This document shows, in pieces, positions 7,282 through 61,210 of a stretch of DNA of 64,000 nt (positions within the stretch are counted from its first letter, which is position 1; each line of letters starts with the position of its first letter). The notes below the pieces were generated by a model. The model was not told where the DNA came from and did not search any database. It was given only the letters and a program-made list of their open reading frames with translations. The stretch spans positions 682,001 through 746,000 of the forward strand of contig NZ_CP134949.1 of assembly GCF_032116555.1 (NCBI RefSeq), in the 5' to 3' direction. Made by a program: the position numbers and the translations under genes. The stretch comes from Halobaculum sp. XH14 (GTDB lineage Archaea; Halobacteriota; Halobacteria; Halobacteriales; Haloferacaceae).

Positions 7282-8283
7282 ATGGCCTCTGGCAAGTACG
7301 ATGTCCTGCTGGACGCAGATGAGTGGGAGAGGAGGGTCTTCGAGAACAAGCACAAGTGCATCAATGACTGGCTTCGCAGCAAAGACTCTACGAACAAGTC
7401 GAGTTCACGTCGAACGCTGAACTCGTATAGCAGGACTGCGGCCAGGTTCTTCCACGAGTTCTTCCCGGAGGTGCATCCTTCCGATGTGACGGTTGGGGAC
7501 GTCGAGGAATACGTTCTGGACTTGAACGATAGGGATGTAGCGCAGAACACGAAGAGGAGGTACATCGAATCGTTGTCTGCGTTCTATACCTGGGCGATGA
7601 AGCGGCCACGGTTCGAAGATATCACAGGTAATCCTGCAGCTGTGGTGTTAGAGGAGATTCCGAAGAAGAAACGGCCTCGTCCGGAGACCGCGACATGGGA
7701 GAACGGCCGTGAGATTATCCGGAATATCCCTGATCCCAGGGACAAGGCTGCGGCTATCCTGATGGCGAAGACCGGTGCCCGTGTCCGTGAAGTCCTGACT
7801 GTGAAGGAAGAGGACTTGATGCTTGAAGACGGGTTCATACGGTTCACCGACAGGAAGGGCGGTCATGAAACCGTAAATCCGTTAGACGGTGAAAGCATTC
7901 AGGCCATCCGCCGGTTGCAAGCGGTCTCCTCGGATGACTCGGTGTACCTGTTCACAGGTATCCACGGAGGCAGGGTGAAACGAGAACGGATTAGACGTGA
8001 GATACGCCGAGCAGCAGTGAAAGCGGGAGTCATGGAGCATGAGGAGGAGGATCGGTGGCACCACAAGTTCACGCCGCACTACTACAGGACGATCTTCACG
8101 TCCTTAATGCGGAATAACGGGATGCCGGACCATTTCACCCGGTATCTCCGTGGCGACGGTGACCGGGAAGTCATGGATCTGTATACGAAGATTCCCAGGG
8201 ACCAAGTCCGGGACGAATACTTGGATCTCATCAAACCACTCAACCTGTACGCCAGGACTGACGGAGGTGAGAATCACAGCTGA
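7282..8283 (+). CDS. Tyrosine recombinase (integrase)
   Basis: 333 residues. An N-terminal SAM-like core-binding domain (about 40-110) precedes the catalytic domain. The active-site residues appear as Arg167 in KTGARVREVL, a basic beta-hairpin at RKGG (191-194), His266-x-x-Arg269 in TPHYYRT and Tyr301 in VMDLYTKI. The enzyme would integrate and excise the element by site-specific recombination. It follows the RHH-like gene with no gap, and its stop overlaps the next small ORF. Confidence 0.93.
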   Translation: MASGKYDVLLDADEWERRVFENKHKCINDWLRSKDSTNKSSSRRTLNSYSRTAARFFHEFFPEVHPSDVTVGDVEEYVLDLNDRDVAQNTKRRYIESLSAFYTWAMKRPRFEDITGNPAAVVLEEIPKKKRPRPETATWENGREIIRNIPDPRDKAAAILMAKTGARVREVLTVKEEDLMLEDGFIRFTDRKGGHETVNPLDGESIQAIRRLQAVSSDDSVYLFTGIHGGRVKRERIRREIRRAAVKAGVMEHEEEDRWHHKFTPHYYRTIFTSLMRNNGMPDHFTRYLRGDGDREVMDLYTKIPRDQVRDEYLDLIKPLNLYARTDGGENHS

Positions 8284-14812: not shown

Positions 14813-15133
14813 CTATTCGGTCTCCAGTAGTTCATCGATCTCCCAGAAGTCCATTGTCTCGTCCTGTTCTTCGTCGTAGAGTGCGACTGCTTTCACGCCT
14901 TCTTCCGGCTTCGTGTAGAGCAGGTCATATCGTTCATCGTTGCCGGTGTCGATGGAGAAGTAGGGCATGGTGCTGCCTTTGACTTCGTGACTGTAATCGC
15001 CGGCTTGGTCTTCAAGGATGGATCTGACTTTTTCGAGCGGCAGATTCACGGGGAAGATGTAGTCGCCGTCGTTGAGTTTGATAGAGCCGCCGAGTGGCTC
15101 GCTCAGGGTTTTGTCGTATTCTACACGTCCTAT
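14813..15133 (-). CDS. Hypothetical protein with ATA start, short paralogue of the 52-kb gene
   Basis: 106 residues from an ATA at 15133. The standard-start reading begins only at a GTG at 15049 and would lose EPLGGSIKLNDGDYIFP, which matches ALGGSILLDDGDYVLP in the protein at 51958-52911, so the upstream reading is real. The ATA lies 6 nt after GGTGA (15140-15144), the same spacing as for GTG starts in this operon. Last gene of the leftward small-gene operon. Confidence 0.65.
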   Translation of the reverse strand: MGRVEYDKTLSEPLGGSIKLNDGDYIFPVNLPLEKVRSILEDQAGDYSHEVKGSTMPYFSIDTGNDERYDLLYTKPEEGVKAVALYDEEQDETMDFWEIDELLETE

Positions 15134-15400: not shown

Positions 15401-16099
15401 CTAACCACCTTCCAGCCAGTCGTTCCAGTCTGATTGTCCGTCGACGTCCGGTACATCCAGGTCCGGTTCTCTGTAGGAACGTACTGAGGATTGCCGTGAC
15501 TCAGTATCTTGGTTCCGGGTTTCTTCGTAGAACTCGGCCTCTTCCTTCAACCAGGCCATTTGCTCCCCGATTCCGGAGAAGTCCTGCTCCTGGAATGGGA
15601 ACCGGGTTTCCCAGGGAAACGGTTCGAACACATCGTTCTCTTTGAGAGGGTCGACGTAGTCGTCGCCGGCGAGTACGATTAATCGGCGGCAGTGCGGATT
15701 CTCTTCGGGAAACCCTGATTTCATGCCGAGCCAGGAAGCGAGTCCGTAGTGAACGCGGCGGGTCCAGAAGTCGAGCCGGTCGTTGTAGAGTGGTTCGTCC
15801 CAGGGATAGCTGGTGTGTTGGTAGGCTTCTGGTTCGACTGGTGCTGGTTCTCCTTCCAGGTCTCCTATGGTGGTGTTGTAGGGTTCTGTTTCGAGGCTGG
15901 GCCAGAGTACGTCGTGTTCGGCGGAGAGTATCGCCCAAGGCGTGGTCCCTTCCGGGGCGTCTTCCCCGATTTGTGACCGGGCCTCTGCGTATCGCTTCTT
16001 CAGCTGGAAGTACGTCGACGTGTAGAGATCCTCGGCAGGTACGGGTTCATTCTGTTTCTGCTGGCCGCAGCCAACCAAGACGTAGGTGCCGTCCTCGAT
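15401..16099 (-). CDS. DUF6884 family protein, probable ATC start
   Basis: 232 residues. YVLVGCGQQKQNEPVPAEDL followed by LYTSTYFQLKKRYAEA and WAILSAEHDVLWP is the DUF6884 signature. The first standard codon, TTG at 16078, falls inside the first strand of the domain; reading from the ATC at 16099 adds EDGTYV and restores it. That ATC follows the upstream TAG directly and is 7 nt after GGTGA (16107-16111). The biochemical role of DUF6884 is not settled; it is common in phage and defence contexts. Confidence 0.75.
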   Translation of the reverse strand: MEDGTYVLVGCGQQKQNEPVPAEDLYTSTYFQLKKRYAEARSQIGEDAPEGTTPWAILSAEHDVLWPSLETEPYNTTIGDLEGEPAPVEPEAYQHTSYPWDEPLYNDRLDFWTRRVHYGLASWLGMKSGFPEENPHCRRLIVLAGDDYVDPLKENDVFEPFPWETRFPFQEQDFSGIGEQMAWLKEEAEFYEETRNQDTESRQSSVRSYREPDLDVPDVDGQSDWNDWLEGG

Positions 16100-16327
16100 C
16101 TACGAATCACCTTCTCCGGGTTCGAGTGCTTCCCCAGCTTCTTCGATCGTGGCCGGGAAGATCATCAGATCCGGGTTTTCCTCCAAGGCGGTGTCGATAC
16201 AGTCCTCGTGGCTTTGGATGTAGTCGGGGACTCCAGAGTAGACGAATTTCAGGACTGGTTCTTCAAGATCTGTACCGGTGTAGAGTTCTGCGATGTAGTA
16301 GCCGTCGACCTCTCTGCCGTCTACTAT
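16100..16327 (-). CDS. Small hypothetical protein, non-canonical start
   Basis: About 75 residues (VDGREVDGYYIAELYTGTDL ... PDLMIFPATIEEAGEAL ...). The frame has no ATG, GTG or TTG near its front. Candidate starts are GTC at 16330 (9 nt after GGTGA), ATA at 16327 or GTA at 16324, which overlaps the preceding TAG. Clear coding composition and its fit between coupled genes make it real even though the start is uncertain. Confidence 0.6.
   Translation of the reverse strand: MVDGREVDGYYIAELYTGTDLEEPVLKFVYSGVPDYIQSHEDCIDTALEENPDLMIFPATIEEAGEALEPGEGDS
16107..16111 (-). promoter_or_regulatory. Shine-Dalgarno core deciding the ATC start of the DUF6884 gene
   Basis: GGAGAAGGTGA precedes the ATC at 16099 by 7 nt. 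GGTGA pairs with the 3-prime end of archaeal 16S rRNA. The only standard start, TTG at 16078, is 28 nt away, too far for this site. Confidence 0.6.
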
Positions 16328-16431
16328 GACCGGTGATTCTCACCTTGATTGAGTAAATGTAACCCGAAGAGAGTCGCCGCGACTCCTCCAAAATATGCCA
16401 GTAAAACCACATCCATACAGCTGAACGTCAC
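16324..16431 (-). CDS. Small single-pass membrane protein
   Basis: 35 residues from a GTG at 16431: TFSCMDVVLLAYFGGVAATL then FGLHLLNQGENHRS. One transmembrane helix spans about residues 6-26. The GTG lies 6 nt after GGTGA, and the gene overlaps the end of the 116-residue gene upstream, so it is translationally coupled. Confidence 0.62.
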   Translation of the reverse strand: MTFSCMDVVLLAYFGGVAATLFGLHLLNQGENHRS

Positions 16432-16778
16432 TCTGTATCACCTTCCAGTATCTCCGACACTGGCTCCAGGTCGGCCTCTTCCCGTGCCCGGTCGACGTTT
16501 TCCAAACTCGTTGACGGTCCGGCGGAGAGGAAGACTGCTTTCTTCGCTTCGAAGTACAGATCCTCCGGGATGTCGTAGTCGTCGAGGATGTCCTCGATCA
16601 GTTCTTCCTGCTTGTCCTCGTGGAGATAATGCCGTAGGTAGGTTGGCGGATCGTCTCTGACTGCGTCACCTGGGTCCAGGCTGCTGTAGTCGAGGCCGGG
16701 AGTGGCTTCTTCGTAGAGTGTGTCGAGTATTTCAAAGTAGGCGTCTTCCCATTCATCCTGTACGTCGTCGAGGTTCAC
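16428..16778 (-). CDS. Acidic hypothetical protein
   Basis: 116 residues from a GTG at 16778 (NLDDVQDEWEDAYFEILDTL ...). The GTG is 9 nt after GGTGA and overlaps the stop of the gene before it (GTGA). Mostly helical and acidic, no recognised family. Confidence 0.65.
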   Translation of the reverse strand: MNLDDVQDEWEDAYFEILDTLYEEATPGLDYSSLDPGDAVRDDPPTYLRHYLHEDKQEELIEDILDDYDIPEDLYFEAKKAVFLSAGPSTSLENVDRAREEADLEPVSEILEGDTE

Positions 16779-17269
16779 AGGGAAGGATCACCTTCGCCTT
16801 TCTGGGGTATGTAGTAGGGTTCGTTGCCGCTGAACTTCTCGACACGCTCCAGGTCAACCTCTTCCTCGACGTACTGGTCGATGGCTTCCTCCGCTGCTTC
16901 CAATGTGATCGCTCCTGATCTGCCGCCGAGTTGCTCTGGGTCCGTCCTGTAGAGTGCGTCGAGGCATGGCCCGTAGCCGTACTTGTTCATGATTCCGGCG
17001 CGGCTGCTCCACGGACCTTTCAGAGTGACTTCTTCTCCGTCGACGGTTTCGATCTCGTAGTGGCGTCCGTTGTACCCGTCTTGTTGGCCACCGTCCCAGG
17101 CGAAGAACTGGACGTAACCCGAGTCGTGTTCAGCGTACCATAGCCCCTGTTCCTCGCTGCCTTCAAACTCGAGGTCGCTGGTGTCGGGGATTTCGTCGAC
17201 GTATAGTATGAGTCGTGGGTCGTTTCCGAAGTCTTCCTTCCAGTCGATTTCAGCGTCTTCTAACTCGAT
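16775..17269 (-). CDS. Hypothetical protein with ATC start
   Basis: 164 residues. The first ATG (16990) is preceded in frame by 93 codons of convincing protein, including YAEHDSGYVQFFAWDGGQQD and YEIETVDGEEVTLKGPWSSR. The frame opens after a TGA inside the Shine-Dalgarno GGTGA, and the codon 6 nt later is ATC (17269); the GTG-started genes at 18396 and 16431 have exactly this geometry. The first domain looks beta-rich; function unknown. Confidence 0.68.
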   Translation of the reverse strand: MELEDAEIDWKEDFGNDPRLILYVDEIPDTSDLEFEGSEEQGLWYAEHDSGYVQFFAWDGGQQDGYNGRHYEIETVDGEEVTLKGPWSSRAGIMNKYGYGPCLDALYRTDPEQLGGRSGAITLEAAEEAIDQYVEEEVDLERVEKFSGNEPYYIPQKGEGDPSL

Positions 17270-28214: not shown

Positions 28215-28373
28215 GTGGAGCAGGGTTTCGATCGAGGCGACTACGGCAAGGTATTGAAGGCGATTAAGAAGAAGCACATCTGCCCGATATGCAGCAAGGC
28301 TTGGGACAGTCAGAAGAAGGCAGTGGAGAAGTTCTTTGAGAATCACAGTGTCGACGAACTCGAGTCCAGATAA
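28215..28373 (+). CDS. Small zinc-finger protein
   Basis: 52 residues from the GTG at 28215. HICPICSKAWDSQKKAVEKF then FENHSVDE gives a C2H2-like finger (CxxC with a later His). A TATA-like ATATAAG at about 28191-28197 lies at the usual distance for a leaderless transcript. It overlaps the convergent gene by about 30 bases. Confidence 0.62.
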   Translation: MEQGFDRGDYGKVLKAIKKKHICPICSKAWDSQKKAVEKFFENHSVDELESR

Positions 28374-28669
28374 TCTTCTGAGAACCGATCGACAAGCGCG
28401 TCGTAGCCTTCGTCTTCCAGTATCTCTATGGCTGTCTCTTTGTGCCAGATCGGGTTGTAAGGCTCTTCTATCCTGTATTGTGGGCCGTAGTGGTCGCTGA
28501 TGTAGAGGCCGAATGGGACGTCTTCGTGGTTGTCGAGGTATTCGTGGTCGCAGATGTACCTCTCGTGGATATTGTATTGGTCGCGGTCGATCCAGTCGTT
28601 CCAAACTATGTCATCGATCAGCTGTTCTTCGAGGGTGCGGCCGAACTCGTCGGTGTGGTCTTCCCCAAT
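28343..28669 (-). CDS. Hypothetical protein with ATT start and no ATG, GTG or TTG in the whole frame
   Basis: 108 residues, GEDHTDEFGRTLEEQLIDDI ... IEEPYNPIWHKETAIEILED ... The 109-codon frame has no standard start codon anywhere, yet composition is typical of its neighbours. It begins with ATT at 28669, 7 nt after the GGTGA (28677-28681) that also holds the upstream TGA, so it is the coupled last gene of the three-gene operon from 30291. The function is unknown. Confidence 0.68.
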   Translation of the reverse strand: MGEDHTDEFGRTLEEQLIDDIVWNDWIDRDQYNIHERYICDHEYLDNHEDVPFGLYISDHYGPQYRIEEPYNPIWHKETAIEILEDEGYDALVDRFSEDYLDSSSSTL

Positions 28670-28676
28670 TCCAGGA

Positions 28677-28681
28677 TCACC
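28677..28681 (-). promoter_or_regulatory. Shine-Dalgarno core overlapping a stop codon, before an ATT start
   Basis: TGGTGATCC: the TGA that ends the upstream gene is part of GGTGA, a perfect match to the anti-Shine-Dalgarno, and ATT follows 7 nt later at 28669. The layout is that of a translationally coupled pair. Confidence 0.6.
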
Positions 28682-29279
28682 ATTCTATCTGGTCGGCTGA
28701 CTCCGCGAGTTCGGTCATGTCGTGGCTGTACCCCTCGGGTAGAGTGTATCCTCCGTCAGGAGCGAATTGATCAAGGCCAGACTGCTCTGTTTTGACTTCG
28801 ACCCCTTCCATCTCCTTTGCGTCGAGTTTGATCTTGTACAGGCCGGCGCTTTCGTATCGGTCCTGTTCTTCGGGATTGCTCTCCATGAGGTTCTCCATCA
28901 TCCTCTCGGCTTCTTCCATGGAGTCGTGGGCGATGTCGGCGGAATCGCCGTTCACCATCTTGTCGGAGATATAGTTCCCGTTCTCGTCTCTCCAAGCCCA
29001 GAAGTATTTCCGCGGTCGGCCTCCGTCAGTCATCAGATCGGTTTCTTCGAGATCTCCAAGTTCATCTTCCAGTTCCTCTATCCGGAGATCGTAGTGAGCG
29101 AGAGGAGCGTAGTTGAACAGGCCGTACTTCATCTCACCGTCTCGGGAAGCGTCGAGGAATAGCCAGTGTGGTTTCCTGAACTCGACGTATTCCTCGGTCT
29201 CGATTTTCTCCTGCTCCAGTTCTTGGATTTCCTGCTCGATTTCCAGTTCCTCAGTAAATGGTTCTGAAGCGTCTGAAAT
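28677..29279 (-). CDS. Hypothetical protein with ATT start
   Basis: 200 residues. The first ATG is at 29132, but 49 upstream codons read as convincing protein (ASEPFTEELEIEQEIQELEQ ... EFRKPHWLFLDASRDGE). The frame begins with ATT at 29279, directly after an in-frame TAG and 8 nt after GGTGA (29288-29292). A coiled coil is followed by a region with GRPRKYFWAWRDENGNYISD. Not recognised. Confidence 0.68.
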   Translation of the reverse strand: MSDASEPFTEELEIEQEIQELEQEKIETEEYVEFRKPHWLFLDASRDGEMKYGLFNYAPLAHYDLRIEELEDELGDLEETDLMTDGGRPRKYFWAWRDENGNYISDKMVNGDSADIAHDSMEEAERMMENLMESNPEEQDRYESAGLYKIKLDAKEMEGVEVKTEQSGLDQFAPDGGYTLPEGYSHDMTELAESADQIEW

Positions 29280-29292
29280 CTATGAGATCACC

Positions 29293-30291
29293 CTACGCCT
29301 CGATCTCGTATTCCTGCATGAGTTCTCGGACGGTTTCGCGTTCTCCTTCCCAGTACTCCTCGGCGTCAGGATCCTCGATCAGTTCGTTGGCACGGCTACG
29401 TACTGCGTTTTCTCCGAGGATGTCTGGATGGGGTATGCCTTCTCCGTATTCCAGGATTCCAGCTGCCTGCTCAAATCCTGTATCCAGCTGGTACTGCGGG
29501 ATGTCGTCTTCTGCGAGATGTGTTAGAGCGTAGGTTGCTGCGTTGTAGGTCTCGTACAGGGACGGATTCTCTGGGTCGTCGACTTCCTCCTGGACAGCAG
29601 TAATCAGGTCCGGTGTCGGGTTCTCCAGGTAACGATCTATCCCGGTGTCTTGCAGAACCAGCAGGGCTTCATCCTGGTTCATCAGGGTCCGGTCCTGTGC
29701 CTGTTCGAGCCTATTTTCGACTTCATCGATTCCCTCGATCGCAGAATCTACTGCGTGTATTGCCAGTCCTGGTTGGAACTCCTCCTCGTGAGTCTGTTCG
29801 TAGGTCTGATCAGCTACGAACGCCATCATACCGTTGCTGCAGACCTGCCGCATCGCCCCGTTCTCGTACTTGACGCCGTGGAAACCACTGTGACCGGACC
29901 GTACTCGGAGATCTGTTTCGATTACGTCGCCGGGCTGTGGCTCTACAGTCTGGTCGAGCCCAATCCGGGCGCTCATCTTGTGAACGGTCGGGGATAGGTT
30001 GACTCTGCCGCTGGGTTCGATATCTTCCTCCCTTTGTTCGATCCCGGTTCTGACGGCGTCGAGTATGTCGCCGTACTGGATTACGTTGTAGAAGTCTTCG
30101 TTGCTGGAGACGATGCCTGTTAGTCGGCCGTCGTCGGTCCAGAGACTGTCTCGGTAGGATGCTTCTTGCCATTCATCGAGGTCTTCGTGGTGTCCGAAGA
30201 CTTTCTGGCGTTCTACTTCGGGTATTTCGTCTTCTATGAGTTTTTCAAGTTCGTAGGAGTCGTCAAATCTGAGTGTGTCGCCTCTTGGAAT
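29293..30291 (-). CDS. DUF932-like mobile-element protein with ATT start
   Basis: 332 residues. The block SGFHGVKYENGAMRQVCSNG then MMAFVADQ is characteristic of DUF932, a family frequent on plasmids and phages and of unknown activity. The usual reading (ATG 29976) lacks the 105 N-terminal residues, which include TLRFDDSYELEKLIEDEIPE and TGIVSSNEDFYNVIQYGDIL. The first codon is ATT at 30291, 6 nt after GGTGA. A TATA-like CTTATAAAAA upstream (about 30330-30339) gives a short leader with this ribosome site. Confidence 0.72.
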   Translation of the reverse strand: MPRGDTLRFDDSYELEKLIEDEIPEVERQKVFGHHEDLDEWQEASYRDSLWTDDGRLTGIVSSNEDFYNVIQYGDILDAVRTGIEQREEDIEPSGRVNLSPTVHKMSARIGLDQTVEPQPGDVIETDLRVRSGHSGFHGVKYENGAMRQVCSNGMMAFVADQTYEQTHEEEFQPGLAIHAVDSAIEGIDEVENRLEQAQDRTLMNQDEALLVLQDTGIDRYLENPTPDLITAVQEEVDDPENPSLYETYNAATYALTHLAEDDIPQYQLDTGFEQAAGILEYGEGIPHPDILGENAVRSRANELIEDPDAEEYWEGERETVRELMQEYEIEA

Positions 30292-30297: not shown

Positions 30298-30302
30298 TCA
30301 CC
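30298..30302 (-). promoter_or_regulatory. Shine-Dalgarno core 6 nt before the ATT start of the DUF932-like gene
   Basis: AGGTGA, then ATCTCT, then ATT at 30291. The TGA within the site is the in-frame stop that closes the reading frame upstream, so no further upstream start is possible. Confidence 0.62.
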
Positions 30303-30330
30303 TGCTAACTCCTGTTTTCTCTGTGTCATT

Positions 30331-40749: not shown

Positions 40750-40758
40750 GAATCAGTA

Positions 40759-41040
40759 GTGGATGAGGTCAACGAGATACTGGAAGGCCCAGCTAAACAC
40801 GAGGACAAAGGAATCGCGGCACGGCTAACCTACGACCAGGAGACAGACTCCTACAGAGTCGAATACAGCCCGCTTCTGGAGAACGGAGAAATCACCGAGG
40901 AGTGGATCGTATTCGGCGGCACTGTCGGATACAACGACTCTGTCTACAGTAGTGAAGAAGCGGCCCACGAGTTCTATGATCAGCTGGAAAACCTGGGACA
41001 AGACGAGATCCTGGACGAGCTCGCAGTAGGTGAAGAGTAG
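40759..41040 (+). CDS. Small acidic protein
   Basis: 93 residues from a GTG 9 nt after GGTGA, overlapping no standard frame upstream. YRVEYSPLLENGEITEEWIV and YSSEEAAHEFYDQLENLGQD suggest a small alpha-beta fold. Not recognised. Second in the rightward small-gene run from 40540 to 42892. Confidence 0.62.
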   Translation: MDEVNEILEGPAKHEDKGIAARLTYDQETDSYRVEYSPLLENGEITEEWIVFGGTVGYNDSVYSSEEAAHEFYDQLENLGQDEILDELAVGEE

Positions 41041-41406
41041 ATGGAAGCAGTACGCGAGATTCTCGAAGCCGAAGGCACCAGCGTAGAGGAAATGGACATC
41101 AACGAGTCCTACAGCTACGACGGCGGAGAAGCCTTCAACGACCTGGCCATCGAGAAAGTCTACGACAACGTTCTCAGCGTCGAACAGCACTACACGCAGC
41201 GGATGGACCGTATGAGCGACCCAGAAGTCAGGTTCGACGTATCCGATCCGGAGGACTGGACGCCGATAGAATATACTCAGCACCCGGCAATTTACCAGAG
41301 AGACGAGGACGGGCTCGAGATGGACGACTTCCTACGGAAGTGGGACAAGAATCTACAAAACCAATTCCCAGCTGACGAAGTCACAGAAGGAGGCGGTAGA
41401 CAGTGA
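41041..41406 (+). CDS. Acidic hypothetical protein
   Basis: 121 residues. The ATG directly follows the previous TAG and is 7 nt after GGTGA. Helical and acidic; not recognised. It ends in a four-base overlap with the next gene. Confidence 0.62.
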   Translation: MEAVREILEAEGTSVEEMDINESYSYDGGEAFNDLAIEKVYDNVLSVEQHYTQRMDRMSDPEVRFDVSDPEDWTPIEYTQHPAIYQRDEDGLEMDDFLRKWDKNLQNQFPADEVTEGGGRQ

Positions 41407-41651
41407 GTGAAGACGGCTATCTAAGAGTTGGATGCAAGAACCACGGAATCATAGACACAGAGATCAGGGATGAGGAGAAGGCCAAAAAAATCCGAGAAGA
41501 ACACGTCGAGGAAAACGACTGCTTTGATTCGGAGGTACAGATACAGGATTTAGGATTCTACGACCACTCAAAGAGAAAACCGGATGATGGCAGTGCTGAA
41601 GAAGCAGAGGAAAGACTAAACGAGATTCTTGGAGAAGGTGAGAATCGGTAG
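41403..41651 (+). CDS. Small hypothetical protein
   Basis: 82 residues from a GTG at 41403 (GTGA overlap). YLRVGCKNHGIIDTEIRDEE and CFDSEVQIQDLGFYDHSKRK hold two cysteines and histidines far apart. Not recognised. Confidence 0.6.
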   Translation: MSEDGYLRVGCKNHGIIDTEIRDEEKAKKIREEHVEENDCFDSEVQIQDLGFYDHSKRKPDDGSAEEAEERLNEILGEGENR

Positions 41652-42115
41652 TGGGAGAAGCTACTGTAGATTATCTTGGCTGGCATCTTGAGGACCGTGG
41701 CCCGGCTACCGAATTGTTCCACGACCTCCACGGATTCGACAACGATATCCCCGACCTTGATGCGACAGAGTTCGAGGATCTGTACCGTGAAGTCCGGGAG
41801 CTGGAGGAAGAGCCGGAGGATTTGGAGCAGCTCTGGGCGGAGTGGAATCGTGGCAGCGGCCAGGAATCACAGGAGTTCCTGGAGATGCGGTACTGCGAGC
41901 CCTGCGACACCTACCAGATCGGCAGCGACCAAGCAATTCAGCACGCCGCAGATAACCACGGATACGATCCGTTCAACGAGGTAGGTGAACCGGACTACGT
42001 CCACGGTATCCGGTCGATGTCAGTCGGTGACGTCGTCGAGATGGGCGACACGTACTACATGGCCGCCTCGATCGGCTGGGAAGAACTCGAAGTAGGAGGT
42101 GAGAATCCGGAGTGA
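41651..42115 (+). CDS. Hypothetical protein with a CxxC/H motif
   Basis: 154 residues from a GTG that overlaps the previous TAG and is 9 nt after GGTGA. YCEPCDTYQIGSDQAIQHAA followed by DNHGYD forms a C2H2-like zinc motif (CxxC, then His). A C-terminal beta segment (SVGDVVEMGDTYYMAASIGW) resembles domains in other haloarchaeal mobile-element proteins. Confidence 0.64.
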   Translation: MGEATVDYLGWHLEDRGPATELFHDLHGFDNDIPDLDATEFEDLYREVRELEEEPEDLEQLWAEWNRGSGQESQEFLEMRYCEPCDTYQIGSDQAIQHAADNHGYDPFNEVGEPDYVHGIRSMSVGDVVEMGDTYYMAASIGWEELEVGGENPE

Positions 42116-48342: not shown

Positions 48343-49761
48343 ATGTTTCGCAACCACGAGGGCGGGCGTGAGGCAAGCCACCATCACGGCGAACTCTACA
48401 AGGATCTTGTCCGCAGGTACTGGGAGGCCCGTGAATACAATGTTGTCGCGGACTCGAAGGACGACAGCATCACGTCCGACCTGATTATCAGGCGGGCTCA
48501 TGAACACGGGAACCAAGATCTGTGGATCGAGACGAAGGACACGAAGCTGACTCGGACCAATCCGGATTTCCTGGCCGAGTTTGCCCGGTACATGATCGAG
48601 TATCAGGAAATTTCTGCGGAACACCGGTTCGACCTGCATATTTTCGTCCGGTATCTCCGGGCTCCGGAGAAGTGGGAGCGGATTTTCAAGGTGGTCAAGC
48701 AGAAGGATGAGGCTGTAAAGGACTTCTATCAGCGGGTCCAGGATGATGCGGATCTGGACGAGGCTGAGGAAGACAAGTTCAACAGCTACCCTTACGAGGA
48801 TTTTGACCACTTCGTTACAGAGGTCACAACTGTCCATCAGATGTCGCCTGCGAAGGTCCAGCAGGCTACGGAGGAGTTGGAACGCAGTGACCGGTACGAG
48901 CACGACACCTTCACCGAGGAAAGGGAACCGATCAACAAGCGAGAGGAGCTGAGACCGAACTTCGCGGAGATAAACAGTCCGCCAGAGAACATCTATATCG
49001 GGGACGTGGACGTTCCGAACTTCTTCCAGGGAGTTACGAACCTGATTGAGGATACGGAGGCAGTCCGGTTCCGGTCGAACAAGGTATTCAGCTTGCTGCC
49101 TCCCGAGGATTTCCCGGATTACGTGGAGTCGGTCGTGGAGATGGATACGGTTTCAGCTGAGTCTTTCGAGGACTGGGCTAAGGACGAAGAGAACACAGAT
49201 CTGGCTTCGTCCTTGCTGACTCGGGAGATCTGCAGGCAGACCGTGGAGAACCACGAGTTGGACGACTGTGTGGCGTTCCGGTACCGTGGCGACTACTACC
49301 TGATGTTCGAGCACGGACCTCTAGAGAAAGAGGTCGAGAAAGTTCGGGGTCAGCAGGTTTCCCGGGTTTTCAGTGATGCCTCTTCCAGGTTTGTTCGTCA
49401 CCGGACTGCCCAGCTGAACGTCCGGCGTTTGAACGACGACTACTTCCTCTTCGTATTGATCAAGGACCACTTTACGGACAACGGAGAGCACATGACCTTG
49501 ATCAGAGGTGAGAGAAAGGGAAGTCTCCACGATAATTTCCCGCAGCACCGGTACAACAACAGTCAGACGTACAGCAGGTATAACCACTGGCGGAAGATCC
49601 TGGGAATCCACAACCGGGCGAAGGATACCAGTGGTCAGATAATCGGGTTCCGACGTATCACTGAGATCTCGATCGGGAAGCGTCCCGCCGGGACACGGGA
49701 GGCAATCGATACTCGGGACACTGATTCGGTTCAGCAGAAACTGGGTGATCACAATGACTGA
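48343..49761 (+). CDS. Nuclease-APAZ protein, partner of a short Argonaute (SPARDA-like)
   Basis: 472 residues from the ATG at 48343. Residues 17-65 show a PD-(D/E)XK core: Glu17 in HGELYKDL, Asp46 in SDLIIRR and Glu63-Thr-Lys65 in DLWIETKDT. The C-terminal half is an APAZ domain: SSRFVRHRTAQLNVRRLNDD, YFLFVLIKDHFTDNGEH and YSRYNHWRKIL. In SPARDA systems such a protein binds the short pAgo and, when activated by guide-target pairing, degrades nucleic acids indiscriminately. It overlaps the Argonaute gene by eight bases. Confidence 0.85.
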   Translation: MFRNHEGGREASHHHGELYKDLVRRYWEAREYNVVADSKDDSITSDLIIRRAHEHGNQDLWIETKDTKLTRTNPDFLAEFARYMIEYQEISAEHRFDLHIFVRYLRAPEKWERIFKVVKQKDEAVKDFYQRVQDDADLDEAEEDKFNSYPYEDFDHFVTEVTTVHQMSPAKVQQATEELERSDRYEHDTFTEEREPINKREELRPNFAEINSPPENIYIGDVDVPNFFQGVTNLIEDTEAVRFRSNKVFSLLPPEDFPDYVESVVEMDTVSAESFEDWAKDEENTDLASSLLTREICRQTVENHELDDCVAFRYRGDYYLMFEHGPLEKEVEKVRGQQVSRVFSDASSRFVRHRTAQLNVRRLNDDYFLFVLIKDHFTDNGEHMTLIRGERKGSLHDNFPQHRYNNSQTYSRYNHWRKILGIHNRAKDTSGQIIGFRRITEISIGKRPAGTREAIDTRDTDSVQQKLGDHND

Positions 49762-51175
49762 TTTCGATGCACGGTGGCTGGGCGAGCCGTCTCTGAAGTT
49801 CGGAGATGGTGAAGCGAAGGATCCTCGCGCCGGCCTGCTGAAACACGGGCCGTGGTCGCCTGGGGAAGGCAACAACCACAACGATATCTATGTCGGGTTC
49901 ATCGGGACCAGTCACTCCATCAGCGCGGTCAAGCGGTTGTTCACTGAGATGGAGACGGTGATCCCCCGGGAGGAGGAAGAACCTCAAAGGCACAAGCCTC
50001 CGTTCCCGGCCCTGGGCACCGACTCTGCCTTCCGTGCCAGCTTCACGATGCTGGACAGGTGGACGTGGGAGATGCCGCCGAGCGACGTCAAACTCGTTAC
50101 TGACGAGCCCACGACTGACCAGAGCGTAGAGACTCTGCTTGACTTAATGGAGATCTATATCAAGGATCTTTCCGGGGATGACCCGCCTCCGAACGTACTT
50201 GTTATTTCGCTGCCGGAGGAGATCGAGGAAGCCTGTACTCACCCGGACAAGAGCAAGGAGAAGATGAAAGCGGGGGACACTGACTTCCACGACCGGATTA
50301 AGACGTTCGGCCTCGAGTATGACGTCCCCACCCAGCTGATTCGACCGAGTTCTCTCCGGTTCGATGACGATGAGGGACAGGAGAAGGCCGAGGTTGCCTG
50401 GAATCTCGCCGTGGCGATGCTCTACAAGTCACGTGAGGGCCATCCCTGGAAGCTGGGGCACCTGGAGAACGACACCTGCTACGCCGGGATCTCATTCTAC
50501 CGTGTGCGGCACGGCGATAAGAGCCAGACACGGGCTTCACTCGCCCAGGTTTTCCTGGGCACCGGGGAGAGCTTCGTGCTTCGCGGCGGCCAAGCAATTA
50601 GAGACGAGTCAACAGGAAACAACCACTTGACCGAGGACAGTGCGGAGGAGATTGTCGGGCAGATCCTTGACCAGTACAAGAGGAAGCGTCGAGGAGCCGA
50701 GCCCAGCAGGTTCGTGCTTCACAAGACTTCCCGGTTCAAGCCCGGTGAACGAGAAGGGTTCAAACGAGGGGCTGGAGACATCGACAAACTGGACTTCGTC
50801 ACGGTGCGCGACGGCGACCCAGTCAGGCTGTACAGTTCAGGGAATTACCCGCCGCTTCGTGGGACAGTAGTCACTCCGAAAGGCGAGGACAAACACTACC
50901 TCTACACACAGGGCTACACTCCGGCCATTCAGACGTATCCAGGTCCTCGCATCCCGGCCCCGATCACCGTTGAGCCAGATCCGGAGGAATGCCACAGCTC
51001 GTACGACGAGATATGTGAGGAGATTCTCTCGTTCACGAAGCTGGACTGGAACACGTCCGACTTTTCGAAAAAGAAGCCGGTCACGATCCGTGTGGCGCAG
51101 GCTGTCGGCGCGATCCTTGCAGAGGCCGACAAACGGGGAATCACGGTCAAACCGCAGTACTACTATTATATGTAA
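49754..51175 (+). CDS. Short prokaryotic Argonaute (MID-PIWI)
   Basis: 473 residues from the ATG at 49754, just after GGTGATCAC. MID features: VPTQLIRPSSLRFDDDEGQE and NLAVAMLYKSREGHPWKL. PIWI features: CYAGISFYRV, SRFVLHKTSRFKPGEREGF, LYSSGNYPPLRGTVV, YTPAIQTYPGPRIPAPI and FTKLDWNTSDFS. The catalytic Asp expected in the first PIWI strand is missing (AGISF), so it should be slicer-inactive, as short pAgos are. It would use small guides to detect invading nucleic acid and activate its nuclease partner. Confidence 0.93.
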   Translation: MTDFDARWLGEPSLKFGDGEAKDPRAGLLKHGPWSPGEGNNHNDIYVGFIGTSHSISAVKRLFTEMETVIPREEEEPQRHKPPFPALGTDSAFRASFTMLDRWTWEMPPSDVKLVTDEPTTDQSVETLLDLMEIYIKDLSGDDPPPNVLVISLPEEIEEACTHPDKSKEKMKAGDTDFHDRIKTFGLEYDVPTQLIRPSSLRFDDDEGQEKAEVAWNLAVAMLYKSREGHPWKLGHLENDTCYAGISFYRVRHGDKSQTRASLAQVFLGTGESFVLRGGQAIRDESTGNNHLTEDSAEEIVGQILDQYKRKRRGAEPSRFVLHKTSRFKPGEREGFKRGAGDIDKLDFVTVRDGDPVRLYSSGNYPPLRGTVVTPKGEDKHYLYTQGYTPAIQTYPGPRIPAPITVEPDPEECHSSYDEICEEILSFTKLDWNTSDFSKKKPVTIRVAQAVGAILAEADKRGITVKPQYYYYM

Positions 51176-51957: not shown

Positions 51958-52911
51958 CTAGAAGTCAGTGAGGCCGATCTGCTCCGTTTCTTCGCCGTCC
52001 TCGTCTTCCTGTTCGTCTTCTTCGAGTCCGTATTCTTTTTTGACTCGTTCCGGCATCTGCAGGACCCCAGAGTCAGGGCTGTGCTCGTTCCTGTAGACTC
52101 CGGCTTTCTGAAGTTCTTCGAATAGGCTGTGAGCGTCGATGTCCCACGTGTTCTCGAGATGGGTGACGTCGCTGGTCGTGGCCCAGGAGATCGTTCTCAA
52201 GTTGGTGTATTCGTCGATCAAGAGTTCAGCAAGAGATGAATCGACGCCGTCGACCTCGGAAAGCCGTTCGATGAAGTGGTCCTCGGCCAGGTCGTCTACG
52301 TGGAAGGTGTCGTAGACCTCTTCGCTGCCCCGGTCCAGTACGTGGATCTCGTTCAGGATCTTCGTCCCGGTTATCTCGTTGGTGCCGCGTAGCTCGGCGG
52401 TCAATTGGTATTTCTCCAGAGCGGCTTCTGGTGTGAGTTCGAGGAAGTCGGGTCGGTAGTCGACGTAGATGTCGTTCGAGTCCTCGGTTTTTGATTCGAG
52501 TATGTCCGCTGCGGTGGAGAACGGTGCCCGGAACGGAAGCACGTAGTCGCCGTCGTCGAGTAGGATGGAGCCGCCGAGTGCGTCATTCAGTCCTGGGTCG
52601 AACTCCGGGTCGGGCAGTGAGCGGTAGCCGTGGTTCTCCAGATTATCGATGACGTCTTCCCAGGGCTGCTGGTAAACGTAGTCTTGAAGCCGTGCTTTGG
52701 GGTCGCCGTGGTCCAGTCTCCAGGCATCGTCTTGCTGGAGCTGGCCTTCCTGGTCGGGGCTGGCGAGTATGACTTCTGCGTGTTCGGGTGTGTATCGGTA
52801 GAAGTGTAGGTAGCCTTGTTCTGCGTCTTTTCCAAGGAACTGGTACTCTGCGTCGTGGAACTCGACTGTTTCCGGAGCGCCAGTGTCGATTTGATGTCCA
52901 CCCTGAAGCAG
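51958..52911 (-). CDS. Hypothetical protein, N-terminus missed by standard starts
   Basis: About 317 residues. The usual reading starts at a GTG at 52542, but the frame upstream encodes convincing protein: QIDTGAPETVEFHDAEYQFL, YLHFYRYTPEHAEVILASPD and ALGGSILLDDGDYVLP, the last shared with the gene at 14813-15133. No ATG, GTG or TTG precedes it; a CTG at 52911 follows an in-frame TAA. A well-placed leaderless GTG (near 52900) is in another frame, so an early one-base indel is an alternative. Confidence 0.68.
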   Translation of the reverse strand: MLQGGHQIDTGAPETVEFHDAEYQFLGKDAEQGYLHFYRYTPEHAEVILASPDQEGQLQQDDAWRLDHGDPKARLQDYVYQQPWEDVIDNLENHGYRSLPDPEFDPGLNDALGGSILLDDGDYVLPFRAPFSTAADILESKTEDSNDIYVDYRPDFLELTPEAALEKYQLTAELRGTNEITGTKILNEIHVLDRGSEEVYDTFHVDDLAEDHFIERLSEVDGVDSSLAELLIDEYTNLRTISWATTSDVTHLENTWDIDAHSLFEELQKAGVYRNEHSPDSGVLQMPERVKKEYGLEEDEQEDEDGEETEQIGLTDF

Positions 52912-55103: not shown

Positions 55104-58100
55104 CTATCTGTACTGGTTGATGAGTTCGCGGATGTCGTCGGAGTCTACGTAGAGACCTTGCAGACGGGTGGTTCTGTCTGCTTCTTTCAGCAGCATGTCG
55201 CCGTCGCCACCGAGTTCCTCGGCTCCGCCCTCGTCGATCAGGATCCGTGAGTCGGACTGCTTCGGGAGGCGGAAGGCTACCCGGGTGTCCAGGTTGGCAC
55301 GGAGATCCGTGTCGATGGCCTCGTGCGAAGGCCGCTGGGTCGAGATAACGAGGTGGACGCCTTGCGCCCGTGCGATCTGGGCGATACGCCGCACGTTGTC
55401 CTCGGTGTCGTCAGCGTCTTCTCCCAGCTGCTGGAGCAGGTCGCTGTATTCGTCGATGATGACGACGATTGGCTTCATCTGGTCGTCCGGGTTCTGCTCG
55501 TTGTACTCTCCGATGTCCCGGCAGACGCTTTCCCGCAGCAATTGTTTTCTACGCGGGATTTCTTCGTCGACCAGCCACTCGAACAGGTCGGCTGCGTCCT
55601 CCGAGTCGGTGATCACCTCACCATTGGCAAGGTTCGGCAGGGCGTCGAAGAAGATGAAGTCGGTCTCCTTCGGATCGACCAGGGCGAACTCGACGTTGTC
55701 CTCGCCTTTCTGCTCGATGAAGTTGAAGATCAGCGAGTACAGGAAGACGGTTTTCCCGCCGCCAGTGGCACCTCCGACCAGCATGTGAGGGGCTTCGGAA
55801 AGATCGGACCGGTAAACCTCCCCGTCGGGTGTGACTCCTGCGAGGTAGGGCAGTGAGGCAGTGTCGATCTCGTTGGAAGGCAGGTACTGGTCTCTGTAGT
55901 CGCGGAGGGGTACGGCGACGTTGTTCTCACGTGGGACGTCCAGGGCTACGTACTCTGTGCCTGGTAGTCGCTGGACGATGGGTTCTTTCTCGAACGCCAT
56001 TTCCCGGGCGATGTCCTCTGTTCGTTGTTCCAGAGGACTCTGTTTTTCGCCAGCTGCTAACCGGATTTTGAACCGGACGACGTTTGGTCCGACCTCGATG
56101 TCATCTGGGTCGATATCCCGGATGTTGATTTTGAAGTCGTTGAGCACCCGTTTCAGGGTCTCGACTAGCTCTGAGTACTCTTCTGGGTCGCCGAACCGCT
56201 TAGTGGGCTTCGCTTCGACTTCCGTTTCTTCCTCGTCTTCTTCGTCTGTCTCCTCGTCTTCTCCAACTTCGTCTTCGGATTCGTCGGGTTCAGTTTCTTC
56301 CTCTATTTCTTCTTCGACGTCTTCTTCGACGTCTGGCTCTTCCGTGTCCTGGTCTTGTTGCTTCTCCTCCCGGTCTTCGATTCCGCTGACGATGAGGCGT
56401 TTGATGGACTGCCGTGGAAGCCTGTCGAGTCGGATGGACTGTGCGTTCGGCGTGACTCCGTCGATGCGTTCGTCCGATGTCCCTTCATCGGTGACTTCAA
56501 CGGAGATGATTCGGGGATTGATCTCGATCTGAGCGTCTCCCTTGAACACGTCGTTGATGCGGTCAGCCCATTCCTGCTTGCCCTCCATCGCTTCAGCGGA
56601 CGTGAGTTCGTAGTACAGCTGTTCCCGGAGTGCTTCTTTCCGGGGCGAAGTAGTGATGTTGCTGTCGCCGGTGAACAAGCCGCGGATGGTGTCCGTCGTT
56701 TCGAATACCTGGTCGACGGCACTTCCCTTGATTACCGGTGTGTCCTCGTCTCGTGAGATTGTGTACGCGCTGCTGGTCTCCTCGAGTGTTTTTATCTCGA
56801 TTATATCGAGGATGAGGCCGCCATCGTCATCGAATTGGACGGTAAGGATGTCTGCCCGGCTCTCGCTGTCGCCCAGGTTCAACCATTCTCTGGTCCGCGG
56901 GTTGTCGATGGAGAAGATTAGCTTGGGATCTGCCAGTGTCTGTTGCAACCACTGGACTGCGATGATCGAGCCAAGCAGCCCTTTCGTGTTACGGGATTTT
57001 CCGCTGCCGAGGGTTTCCCGCGTGATGAGCCGGAGAAGTCCGCTTTGCTGCAGATCTGCGATTCTTTCAGCGATTTCTTCGAGGTCGGTGTCGTCGGGAG
57101 CGAGCCGGTATTCGTTGATGATGCGGCGGAGTACCCGTCGGAAGTAGTCGATGTCTTCCGAGTACGTGGCGAAGTCACGGTCACCGCGTCGTTCCCTGGA
57201 GATCAGGTTTTCCTTCCAGAACGGGTTGCCGTTCATCGGCGGGGAGGAGATCGATACCCAGATCCCGGAGTCGAGAAGTTTGTCGATGGTCTCCTTGTCG
57301 ACGTTCAGTTCGTTGATCTCAGCGTTGTGGATAGCTTGACGCTGATTGTATAGTTGGTTGATCAGGTCCTGGTACTCTGAGAAGAGCACGCCTTCCTTCG
57401 ACGGCGAGATGTTGATCTTGTCTTCGAGGAGGTCGTAGTCGAACTCCTTCGGGACGTACAGTGGATGGATGTTGGTGTCGGCGTCTCGTTCGAAGGTTTG
57501 GATGCTGAAGTTGCTCTGGTCGTTGAGCAGGATGAAGTGCTTGGGGTCGCCGGTCAGGTCCTCGGCGTACGAGTCGTAGCTGGTGTGTTCGGTCGTGACG
57601 ATTTCGAAGTTCCCGGAGTCGTTGTCCGGGCCGAACAGGTTGATGATGTCCTCTGAGGTTTGGGGTGAGACAGTTCCGTTGAGGACTGGCTTCTCCTCGT
57701 CCTCGATGAACACGAACTCGACAGTGGCACCTTGGATCTTCTCTTTGTCGGCCAGGTCAACGATGTCTTCCAGCAGGTCGATCGGGTCAAGCGGGTCGAT
57801 AACGCTGATCCGCAGCTGGCGTTGGGATGGCGGGTATGCCGATACGAACTTGTTCAGGACGTAGTCGTAGAACTTGGAGTTCGTGCCTTCTGCAGCGTTG
57901 TCTATACGGGTGTAGACTGGCAGCCGGTCGAGTTCGGCGGACTGTACGAGGTAGGTTTCTTCGCCAAGTCGGTAGTTTCCGCCGACGTGGATGCTACGGA
58001 GTACGTGGGGTTGTTCCTCGACGCTGTCGATCAGGAAGTTCCGTTCCTCTTCTGTGAGCGACTCGTGTTCGTCGTTCACTCCCCGTGCCAGTTCGGAGTA

Positions 58101-59711
58101 TTTCCAGAGGTGAAGGGGGTGGAGCGGTGACAGGACGAGTTCACGGTCGTCTTCGTATTCGAAGATGATCGTGTCGAAGAGGAGGAAGTCGGAGAGGAGT
58201 TTCGAGGATCCTTCGGAGCTTACGTTCTGGATTTCACGGTACTGCTTGTCCAGTTTGTCCTGGACTTCTCGGTATGCCTCGATGTACTCTTCTGCAGACT
58301 CAAGCAGGTCTTCGTCACCGAGTAGCCGGATCAGCGGTGCTGACAGGAGGCCGGGTAGTGCGTCGACGAGTTCGGTCCGTGCTTCTACGTACCGGTTGAT
58401 TGAGTCGACGAGGTCCTCGAATTTCCCGGTGTTTTCAGCTACCTTTCGGAGTTTTTCGAAGGCGCTGTCCTCTTCACGCGGGTTGAACTGTTCTGTTTCG
58501 AGGGCTTGGAAGTTCTTGATGGCGTCTTGCTTGTCTTCGGGGTTGTGGATGATTCCGCCGAAGGATTCCTCTGTGACGAAGTGGTCGACGAAGTAGTACA
58601 GGTCGTCGTTGACGTCGAAGGCGAGCTGTTCGTCGCCTGTGAACTCGATGTCGATCCTGTTCTCTTCGTCTTCTATGGCTTCCCGGTATTTCTCGTCGAA
58701 CTCGCTGGAAACTCGTTCCAGTTCTTCGTCCTCTCCGTCGAACACGGCTTCGACTCCGGCGGATTCACTGTCTCGACGGGTGCTGGTTGTGGATCGGCGG
58801 GAAGAGGAGGAGCCGGATGTAGAGAAGATCTCGTCGACCTCGTTGTAGGTGAGGTCGGCCAGGATATCGGAGTCTCCAGTCCGTTCGAATCTTCGGAGTT
58901 TGGCGACGGCTTCTTCTCGTTCTTCCCTGTTTGCGTCGTCGACCTTGGTGACGCTGTTTGTCAGGCGTCGTCGGTCCGTGTTCGACATGTGGGAGACCCG
59001 GAGTACGAGGTCGAGGTTGTCGGAGAGCCGGTCAGGGATTTGGTCTGGGTTGTTCAGCCCGGGGTCGTTGAAGAGTCGAAGCCGATGGAGTTCGGTTCCA
59101 AGGGCGTCGAGGGATGCCTGTTCGTTGTCCTGTAGGGTGGCGTTTGCGTAGTCTGCTATGGCAGGGATTTCGAACCTGTCGTAGAGGCTGGATCCGAGGG
59201 TTTCCCAGATTGCTTGGGCTGGGGGACTGTCGGTGAACTGGTCGTGTGCCTGCATCCGGTCAGTGATTTCCCGGGTGATCTCTGCCAGCGGCAGATCAAC
59301 CATGCCCTCGAAGTCTTTCATCGAGTTCAGCCGGGCGTGGTCGCCACGGACCAGGATTACCAGCTTCTCGGGTTCTATCCTCCCGTCCCAATCGAAATCG
59401 GTCTGCGTGCCGTTACGCCAGTTGACAGCGACACTGACCTTGTCGGTTATTCGGACTGAGGAACCGTCGGCTTGGGACTGAAGGGAGTTAACATCGGCTT
59501 CATCAATGCTCACCATTGCCAGGCCGACATCGTACCTGGTGCTACTGCAGAGTGTTTCGACGAATGCCTCGGCGTCGAACCGGGGCGGAGACTCGATGAT
59601 GACACCGATGTTCTCCTCGGTCAATTGGTCGACCGTCTCGCTGCCGATCGCTTCTCCGATTAGCTCCTCGTTGGTTTGATACGAGCCGTTCTGGGATTGG
59701 GATTCACTCAT
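55104..59711 (-). CDS. Large FtsK/HerA-like motor protein with embedded nuclease-like motif (DptH/PbeD-like)
   Basis: 1535 residues. The C-terminal third is an FtsK/HerA motor: Walker A LVGGATGGGKTVFLYS, Walker B PIVVIIDEYSDLLQQ, then GVHLVISTQRPSHEAIDTDL. Around residue 955, SRADILTVQF ... LDIIEIKTLE has the D...ExK spacing of PD-(D/E)XK nucleases. An acidic linker (about 1120-1165) separates the halves. Layout and operon match the large effector of Dnd-linked Dpt/Pbe systems. The ATG overlaps the upstream stop and follows GAGGTGG. Confidence 0.8.
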   Translation of the reverse strand: MSESQSQNGSYQTNEELIGEAIGSETVDQLTEENIGVIIESPPRFDAEAFVETLCSSTRYDVGLAMVSIDEADVNSLQSQADGSSVRITDKVSVAVNWRNGTQTDFDWDGRIEPEKLVILVRGDHARLNSMKDFEGMVDLPLAEITREITDRMQAHDQFTDSPPAQAIWETLGSSLYDRFEIPAIADYANATLQDNEQASLDALGTELHRLRLFNDPGLNNPDQIPDRLSDNLDLVLRVSHMSNTDRRRLTNSVTKVDDANREEREEAVAKLRRFERTGDSDILADLTYNEVDEIFSTSGSSSSRRSTTSTRRDSESAGVEAVFDGEDEELERVSSEFDEKYREAIEDEENRIDIEFTGDEQLAFDVNDDLYYFVDHFVTEESFGGIIHNPEDKQDAIKNFQALETEQFNPREEDSAFEKLRKVAENTGKFEDLVDSINRYVEARTELVDALPGLLSAPLIRLLGDEDLLESAEEYIEAYREVQDKLDKQYREIQNVSSEGSSKLLSDFLLFDTIIFEYEDDRELVLSPLHPLHLWKYSELARGVNDEHESLTEEERNFLIDSVEEQPHVLRSIHVGGNYRLGEETYLVQSAELDRLPVYTRIDNAAEGTNSKFYDYVLNKFVSAYPPSQRQLRISVIDPLDPIDLLEDIVDLADKEKIQGATVEFVFIEDEEKPVLNGTVSPQTSEDIINLFGPDNDSGNFEIVTTEHTSYDSYAEDLTGDPKHFILLNDQSNFSIQTFERDADTNIHPLYVPKEFDYDLLEDKINISPSKEGVLFSEYQDLINQLYNQRQAIHNAEINELNVDKETIDKLLDSGIWVSISSPPMNGNPFWKENLISRERRGDRDFATYSEDIDYFRRVLRRIINEYRLAPDDTDLEEIAERIADLQQSGLLRLITRETLGSGKSRNTKGLLGSIIAVQWLQQTLADPKLIFSIDNPRTREWLNLGDSESRADILTVQFDDDGGLILDIIEIKTLEETSSAYTISRDEDTPVIKGSAVDQVFETTDTIRGLFTGDSNITTSPRKEALREQLYYELTSAEAMEGKQEWADRINDVFKGDAQIEINPRIISVEVTDEGTSDERIDGVTPNAQSIRLDRLPRQSIKRLIVSGIEDREEKQQDQDTEEPDVEEDVEEEIEEETEPDESEDEVGEDEETDEEDEEETEVEAKPTKRFGDPEEYSELVETLKRVLNDFKINIRDIDPDDIEVGPNVVRFKIRLAAGEKQSPLEQRTEDIAREMAFEKEPIVQRLPGTEYVALDVPRENNVAVPLRDYRDQYLPSNEIDTASLPYLAGVTPDGEVYRSDLSEAPHMLVGGATGGGKTVFLYSLIFNFIEQKGEDNVEFALVDPKETDFIFFDALPNLANGEVITDSEDAADLFEWLVDEEIPRRKQLLRESVCRDIGEYNEQNPDDQMKPIVVIIDEYSDLLQQLGEDADDTEDNVRRIAQIARAQGVHLVISTQRPSHEAIDTDLRANLDTRVAFRLPKQSDSRILIDEGGAEELGGDGDMLLKEADRTTRLQGLYVDSDDIRELINQYR

Positions 59712-61210
59712 TGTTCCACCTCGGGGACAGAGACAATCGTGACGCCGTCCGCGTATTCCTCAGCGTATCCGAGGCTGGACACGGCTTCTTTGAAGCCCTC
59801 GTAGTTTTGGTTGTTCAGGGGGTCGCTTTCTGAAGCACTGGCACCGAGCCTGATGTCCCATTCGGCCAGGTGGCTTCGGTCTTCTTCGGTGCCGCCAACG
59901 ATGATTCCGTACCGCTGACGGAGTTCCTCGGACAGTTCCTGGAGAGACATCCGTTTTCCAGGTTCAATGACCGAGAGGATGATAGGTTCAAGCATCTCGG
60001 GATCGGGCTGATAGCGGCGCTTGTTTGCCCGGTTTCCACGTGGCTTGAGAAGCCCTGCACGCCAGGCGTACGCTTGCGCAGTGGCCTGCGGGGTGTAGGT
60101 GTCGAACCGGTTCGAGAAGTCGTGGATAACGTTACTGACCGCGTCCACTAACCTGTTGAACGTGGTGTCCTCCTCGGGGTCGCGGGATGCCCGGAATACC
60201 TGCTCAAACTTTTCGTAGTCCTCGTCGATTTTATCATCCTTCTTCCGGTTGAGATCCAGGAAGTTTTGGTTCTCGATTTCGCGCAGGACGTCGTCTTCGC
60301 TGTAGTCTTTGTAGCCGTCTCGGTCGAGGACCTTTTTGACGCCGAGCCGGGTAGCTAACTGGACTTCTGACCCGACGACGCGGAAGGATTCGAGGCTGGC
60401 GTCGGCAACCGGGTTGTTCCTGTTTCCGGTGTAGTTGAAGACGAGTGGGACAGGCTCATCTTTGCCTTCGTCTTCCCGGATCTCGTTGTGCCGGTTGGCC
60501 ATGTAGACGTACATCAGGAATCCGCCGAACTTGACGACTCGGCGGAGATCTCGGGCATAGTTCAGGTCGTAGTCGCCGTTGGAATCCTTGAGGTGTTTCG
60601 ACAGGGTTTCGAATCCGTCTACGAACTCTTCCGCGATTTGGCCGTCGTCGAATGCGTCACCGAGGACAGGTTCATCCCAAGGTGAGACGGTGACGGTGTC
60701 CGTCTCTCCGTCCTTTGCGAGGGGGCGGAAGAGTAGGGAGATGGCGTCGTGGTGATCGCGGAGCTGGTCCGTGAGTTTCTGCTCGATGTCGCTGTTAGAC
60801 TCCTGCATCACCGTGTAGATGAATCGAGATGGAGAGACACCGATGGTCCTGTATGCGATGAACCAGTCGCTCATCGAGGTCATGGCGGACCAATGCGGTG
60901 TGCTGGTGTACAGGGCGTTGTCGTTGTCCAGGACCTTCCGCATCCGGCGACGGAGATTGTCCAGTTGCTCGTCGCTCAGGTCACGCGATGATTCGAACAG
61001 GTCGTGGTATTTCTCGTCGAGTTCGCTGGAAGGAGAGCTTCCAGGTTTGTCGACGAACGTGATGAGGTCTTCCGACTGGTGGGTTGATCCTAAGACGTTG
61101 CTGAAGATTACCTGGGCCAGGTGAACCGGCTTTGTGGAGGTGGATGTGGCTTTGAAGCCGAAGGCGGCTATCGATGCGTCACCGTTCACGTCGTTGAGTC
61201 TCATTGGCAT
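59708..61210 (-). CDS. Defence-operon protein, third gene (PbeC/DptG-like position)
   Basis: 500 residues. MPMRLNDVNGDASIAAFGFK, LYTSTPHWSAMTSMSDWFIA and RRVVKFGGFLMYVYMANRHN are recognisable blocks of proteins found beside DptF- and DptH-like genes; I cannot give a fold. The C-terminal part (SLQELSEELRQRYGIIVGGT) looks winged-helix-like. The ATG is 6 nt after GGAGGTGA. It overlaps the motor gene by four bases, so the proteins are made together. Confidence 0.65.
   Translation of the reverse strand: MPMRLNDVNGDASIAAFGFKATSTSTKPVHLAQVIFSNVLGSTHQSEDLITFVDKPGSSPSSELDEKYHDLFESSRDLSDEQLDNLRRRMRKVLDNDNALYTSTPHWSAMTSMSDWFIAYRTIGVSPSRFIYTVMQESNSDIEQKLTDQLRDHHDAISLLFRPLAKDGETDTVTVSPWDEPVLGDAFDDGQIAEEFVDGFETLSKHLKDSNGDYDLNYARDLRRVVKFGGFLMYVYMANRHNEIREDEGKDEPVPLVFNYTGNRNNPVADASLESFRVVGSEVQLATRLGVKKVLDRDGYKDYSEDDVLREIENQNFLDLNRKKDDKIDEDYEKFEQVFRASRDPEEDTTFNRLVDAVSNVIHDFSNRFDTYTPQATAQAYAWRAGLLKPRGNRANKRRYQPDPEMLEPIILSVIEPGKRMSLQELSEELRQRYGIIVGGTEEDRSHLAEWDIRLGASASESDPLNNQNYEGFKEAVSSLGYAEEYADGVTIVSVPEVEQ

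Follow-up and report, generated by a model that had tools for sequence, protein, structure and literature searches.

Start codons of the AUH kind (AUU, AUC or AUA) are already known, singly in bacteria and as the rule in animal mitochondria. Mitochondria lack a Shine-Dalgarno (SD) mechanism and have a modified tRNA-Met; archaea initiate with aIF1, aIF1A and aIF2 rather than with IF3. Mitogenome papers count ATT, ATC and ATA among the usual starts of metazoan mitochondria. In Staphylococcus aureus, infC, cvfC1 and ccpN have conserved AUU or AUA starts with an extended SD, which reduce expression and in one case respond to the medium (PMC13009471). In E. coli, the AUU start of infC and pcnB limits expression, infC being subject to autoregulation by IF3 (Sacerdot 1996 and Binns 2002, as cited in PMC2268962 and PMC13009471); ATT is credited with approximately 0.3% of ATG activity (Hecht 2017, as cited in PMC10666635). 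In the haloarchaeon H. volcanii, translation from AUG was not increased by an SD in the 5' UTR and was lowered by one of 8 nt (PMC3986360).

The locus described here lies in a window of 64,000 nucleotides from Halobaculum sp. XH14. It shares with the S. aureus genes near-cognate AUU and AUA starts, a strong and well-spaced SD, and a non-AUG codon kept across species. The start is one base from AUG (ATT, ATC or ATA at SD spacing), the SD is present in 41 of the 43 AUH copies of two homology-defined families, and the non-AUG start is conserved in orthologues (29/34 for the DUF932 family, 12/12 for gene 3). Whereas the S. aureus cases are a few chromosomal bacterial genes, we are dealing with an archaeal mobile-element lineage in which AUH, AUC included, is the largest class of SD-led starts. 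E. coli infC and pcnB likewise have an AUU start, but they are single regulatory genes, and an effect on expression in the haloarchaeal element is only inferred. ATN starts are common to metazoan mitochondria and the element, although in the latter AUH goes with an SD. Finally, SD motifs close to an upstream stop codon inside operons are familiar from haloarchaea (Kramer 2014, PMC3986360; Huber 2019, PMC6728339); unlike the genes of those studies, which were taken to have standard starts, the first gene of our operon is SD-led, promoter-proximal and begins with AUU. We found no report in the open-access literature of an archaeal element lineage with AUH starts as a major class.

A three-gene operon with ATT at SD spacing

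The preliminary description had singled out positions 28343-28669 (reverse strand) as an acidic frame without ATG, GTG or TTG and as the third gene of an operon, and each of these observations was borne out. Between its flanking stops the frame spans 113 codons (28343-28684). It contains none of the three codons and four CTG codons, all of them internal, and from 28669 encodes 108 residues followed by TGA. The protein, of unknown fold, is indeed acidic (28% Asp + Glu, 5.6% Lys + Arg, pI 4.06). It has no match in Pfam or PHROG, and its AlphaFold model is poor (pLDDT 57). The absence of NTG codons is by itself weak evidence for a gene. With the codon usage of the element, the chance of finding no ATG, GTG or TTG across 108 codons is approximately 2%, and the window contains 13 stop-free stretches of 100 codons or more that lack them, most being shadow frames of other genes. 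What lifts gene 3 above chance is its SD-ATT arrangement, together with conservation in 10 other genomes.

The start chosen in the preliminary description, 28669, is exactly the ATT (28667-28669) that stands at SD spacing. The GGTGA core (28677-28681) lies 7 nt before it and includes, as its TGA, the stop codon of gene 2; the SD site reads AATGGTGAtcctggaATT, then 7 nt, then ATT, and the sequence immediately 5' of the gene is AATGGTGA, followed by the same 7 nt and ATT. Gene 2 (28677-29279, reverse strand) starts with ATT at 29277-29279, 8 nt after the GGTGA core of its SD GGGTGATC (beginning GGGTGATCTCATAG-ATT), and its homologues start with ATA, ATT or ATC. Gene 1, the first of the operon (29293-30291, reverse strand), encodes a DUF932 protein (PF06067, E 5e-8; 33.4 bits, above the gathering score of 23). 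It starts with ATT at 30289-30291 (beginning AGGTGAATCTCT-ATT), 6 nt after the SD AGGTGA at 30298-30303. Gaps of 13 nt and 7 nt separate gene 1 from gene 2 and gene 2 from gene 3. Since all three genes have an SD-ATT start, the arrangement is common to the whole operon. The upstream neighbour of gene 1 is divergent and there is no co-directed gene upstream, so that initiation at gene 1 cannot derive from a same-strand upstream gene. A TATA-like box lies approximately 45 nt 5' of the gene 1 ATT; at 40 to 50 nt, such a box is present only in the window and its three nearest relatives.

Homologues of gene 3 were found in 10 of the 390 other Halobacteria genomes (391 searched; E 1e-5 to 3e-35). 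They come from independent genomes, share 33-59% protein identity in the same frame, have no internal stops, and retain the GGTGA core. The start region was read in 12 copies, including that of the window; all have a start codon at SD spacing, and in none is it a standard one: ATC occurs in 6, ATT in 2 (one being the window), ATA in 2, and GTC and GTA in 1 each. The non-canonical start put forward in the preliminary description thus holds for every copy read, at a position where AUH (10 copies), GUC or GUA is found. Its hope for conserved homologues was met, but not that for a homologue with a standard start, as gene 3 itself has none; the missing control is provided by two companion families (see below). 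Judged by this comparison, the frame is a real protein-coding gene.

In Haloarcula vallismortis (L013:10471-11727), gene 3 and a homologue of the window gene at 51958-52890 form a single in-frame fusion; in the window, the latter is a separate, distant gene with its own AUC start. Convergent with gene 3 and overlapping its 3' end is a 52-residue frame that starts with GTG and contains a CPIC motif (28215-28373, forward strand).

Start codons in companion families and related elements

The DUF932 family is present in 31 of 391 genomes and 20 of 86 genera. Leaving aside L148, with an unclear start, and the truncated L124, 34 distinct readable copies start with ATT (20), ATC (9) or ATG (5), and the ATG is the same aligned codon as the AUY of the others. 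An SD at 6-7 nt precedes 28 of the 29 AUY starts, whereas it is missing or wrongly spaced in 4 of the 5 ATG copies. The family tree requires three changes from AUY to AUG, while T and C interchange at the third base eight times. The small 'TDYDEEE' gene behaves similarly: 13 copies start with AUY, all with an SD, and 8 have canonical starts (7 ATG, 1 GTG), 3 of which lack one. With the two families pooled, the SD is present or absent in 41 and 2 AUH copies versus 6 and 7 canonical copies (Fisher p = 2e-4). This value counts related sequences, and our rule for picking starts favoured SD-bearing AUH codons where several options existed; the association is inflated for both reasons. Comparison of the copies shows a well-spaced SD before almost every AUH start, and often no such SD before AUG.

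We also surveyed 41 loci of related elements, calling 156 genes purely from the SD and the coding frame; a minority of these start calls will be wrong. AUH is the largest start class among these SD-led genes, with 66 of 156 (ATT 28, ATC 23, ATA 15), versus 51 standard starts (GTG 29, ATG 16, TTG 6) and 39 others. At two control positions deeper in the same frames, ATH occurs only 12 and 20 times; in an earlier set of 112 genes the numbers were 50 versus 4 and 10. The longest anti-SD match averages 6.6 nt. Its length does not differ between AUH genes and GTG or ATG genes in the survey, and we dropped the idea that AUH genes have a stronger SD. Nor is GUH supported as a general start class, with GTC or GTT 13 times at start positions versus 10 and 17 in the controls, not clearly above; GTC or GTT is nonetheless conserved in two families.

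Within the window, several further reverse-strand genes have AUH codons at SD spacing: an amidoligase-like gene (PF12224; 38622-39365, AGGTGA-6-ATT), a gene at 16775-17269 (AGGTGA-6-ATC, with ATC in 3/3 homologues), a DUF6884 gene (PF21818, E 1e-20; 15401-16099, AGGTGA-7-ATC), a gene at 14813-15133 (AGGTGA-6-ATA) and the gene at 51958-52890 (GGTGG-7-ATC, with ATC likewise in homologues L015 and L016). By contrast, no convincing AUH gene was seen in the haloviruses HF2, HCTV-1 and HVTV-1 (50 kb each) or in approximately 119 kb of host chromosome; the only two ATC calls in these samples, both in HCTV-1, are not convincing genes. Of the 19 AGGTGA-N6-ATH sites that the whole host genome has outside the element, none shows a convincing ORF. 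Although neither peptides nor ribosome data are available, comparison strongly supports AUH initiation in element genes.

A probable GTC start belongs to the gene at 16100-16330 (reverse strand; leader AGGTGAGAATCACCG), with GTC identical in 3/3 homologues. The leader AGGTGAGAATC(A/G)G(T/C)A is common to the window at 40750-42115 and 16100-16330, to L015:12713 and to L016:12210, and stands before GTG in some genes and before GTC or GTT in others. Homologues behind it keep GTC (3/3) or GTT (2/2), and GUC or GUU starts are possible.

Probable initiation at AUH codons and its alternatives

We consider it highly probable that gene 3 is translated from the AUU at 28669 by SD-directed near-cognate initiation, probably with the ordinary Met-tRNAi, and that this is shared across the element lineage; the inference is drawn from sequence alone, without peptide, ribosome-profiling or reporter data. 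The GGTGA SD, 5-9 nt (mostly 6-7 nt) upstream, would pair with the 16S rRNA 3' end, placing AUU, AUC or AUA into the P site, where the initiator tRNA would start despite the third-base mismatch, most likely inserting methionine. Methionine as the first residue of these proteins is thus an inference. The same arrangement would serve gene 2, many other element genes, and gene 1, where initiation would be de novo, with no same-strand gene upstream. In DUF932, AUG is rare despite being a single mutation away, which suggests selection for a weak or conditional start; we infer a role for AUH in holding expression low or tying it to initiation fidelity.

That the frame is not a gene, is a pseudogene, or has its true start elsewhere (through a frameshift, a sequencing error or the out-of-frame TTG at 28668) can hardly be maintained. 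The lack of a database family and the 13 ATG/GTG/TTG-free stretches, mostly shadows, would allow for it, but not the 33-59% identity in the same frame in independent genomes without an internal stop, nor the companion families, which place AUG at exactly the AUH position. The comparisons show, as far as they can without protein data, that the predicted gene 3 exists, where it starts, and that AUH goes with a correctly spaced SD. A less easily dismissed, if still unlikely, account is that a ribosome terminating on the upstream gene restarts at whichever codon comes next near the SD, the identity of the codon being nearly irrelevant. Gene 3 would suit it, starting 7 nt past the gene 2 stop with an SD that includes this stop; H. 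volcanii shows strong coupling (PMC6728339), and a role in aiding reinitiation has been proposed for SD motifs close to stops (PMC3986360). However, gene 1 has the same SD-AUY start without a same-strand upstream gene, a TATA-like box lying between it and its divergent neighbour, and the codon at SD spacing is mostly AUH or NTG, which is unexpected if its identity hardly matters.

It is also conceivable, though we give this less credence than reinitiation, that the element, or a host state that it exploits, supplies a factor or an altered tRNA with relaxed third-base reading, making AUH efficient and the genes a translationally gated regulon. AUU, AUC and AUA are the codon box expected from altered third-base reading, AUH is the biggest SD-led start class of the lineage and was not found in the sampled host chromosome and haloviruses, and some relatives have large tRNA arrays. 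Yet neither the window nor its continuation yielded a tRNA, and the proteins that were scanned included no translation factor; GTG, ATG and TTG are used within the same elements, and AUG turns up as isolated replacements, which plain near-cognate initiation would permit. More speculatively, and with about as little confidence as for reinitiation, the lineage may have a distinct initiation regime with AUH as an active gate, in which genes 1-3 and others would be near-silent while integrated and jointly switched on by a change in initiation fidelity or in an element factor.

SD-directed initiation at gene 1, if correct, conflicts with the H. volcanii model, in which an SD in the 5' UTR brought no gain in translation from AUG. 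This species reportedly makes no use of SDs in 5' UTRs (PMC3986360), so that gene 1 is especially informative, and our data bear on SD-directed de novo initiation in haloarchaea, which the H. volcanii work denies. With AUH repeatedly retained one mutation from AUG, the purpose of non-AUG starts becomes testable in a genetic model group. Going by their start-codon rules, standard gene finders, which accept only AUG, GUG and UUG, should miss or mis-start AUH genes; some of what haloarchaeal mobile elements encode is therefore probably hidden.

The integrated element and its cargo

The operon belongs to an integrated element of approximately 98 kb and 53% GC in a host chromosome of approximately 70% GC; its left boundary is at about 5-6 kb of the window and its right one about 40 kb past the window's end. 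A tyrosine integrase (7291-8283, forward strand) lies near the left end, and the cargo further includes an Orc1/Cdc6 protein, HerA/FtsK-like ATPases and defence-type genes. Phage and plasmid collections contain no match for genes 1 and 3, and IMG/VR only distant DUF932 fragments. Membership in the haloarchaeal tailed viruses (Thumleimavirales) is not supported, given the lack of phage matches for genes 1 and 3 and of convincing AUH genes in the surveyed 50 kb of each of the three haloviruses; capsid genes were left out of this test. No tRNA was found in the window and its continuation, and an element tRNA was rejected on this ground as the cause of AUH starts. The Haloarcula vallismortis copy adjoins 26 tRNA genes (L013:1166-4734), including tRNA-Ile(UAU), a cluster reported as possibly proviral (PMC6333295). 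The defence-type cargo (48352-51175 and 55104-63957) comprises an archaeal Argonaute with an REase partner, SspF/SspG/SspH-like proteins and DruA. Beyond the window, the element encodes an 890-residue protein (L024:3484-6156) that combines a P-loop-like GIPRSGKG motif with a Gins51 C-terminal domain (PF22090).
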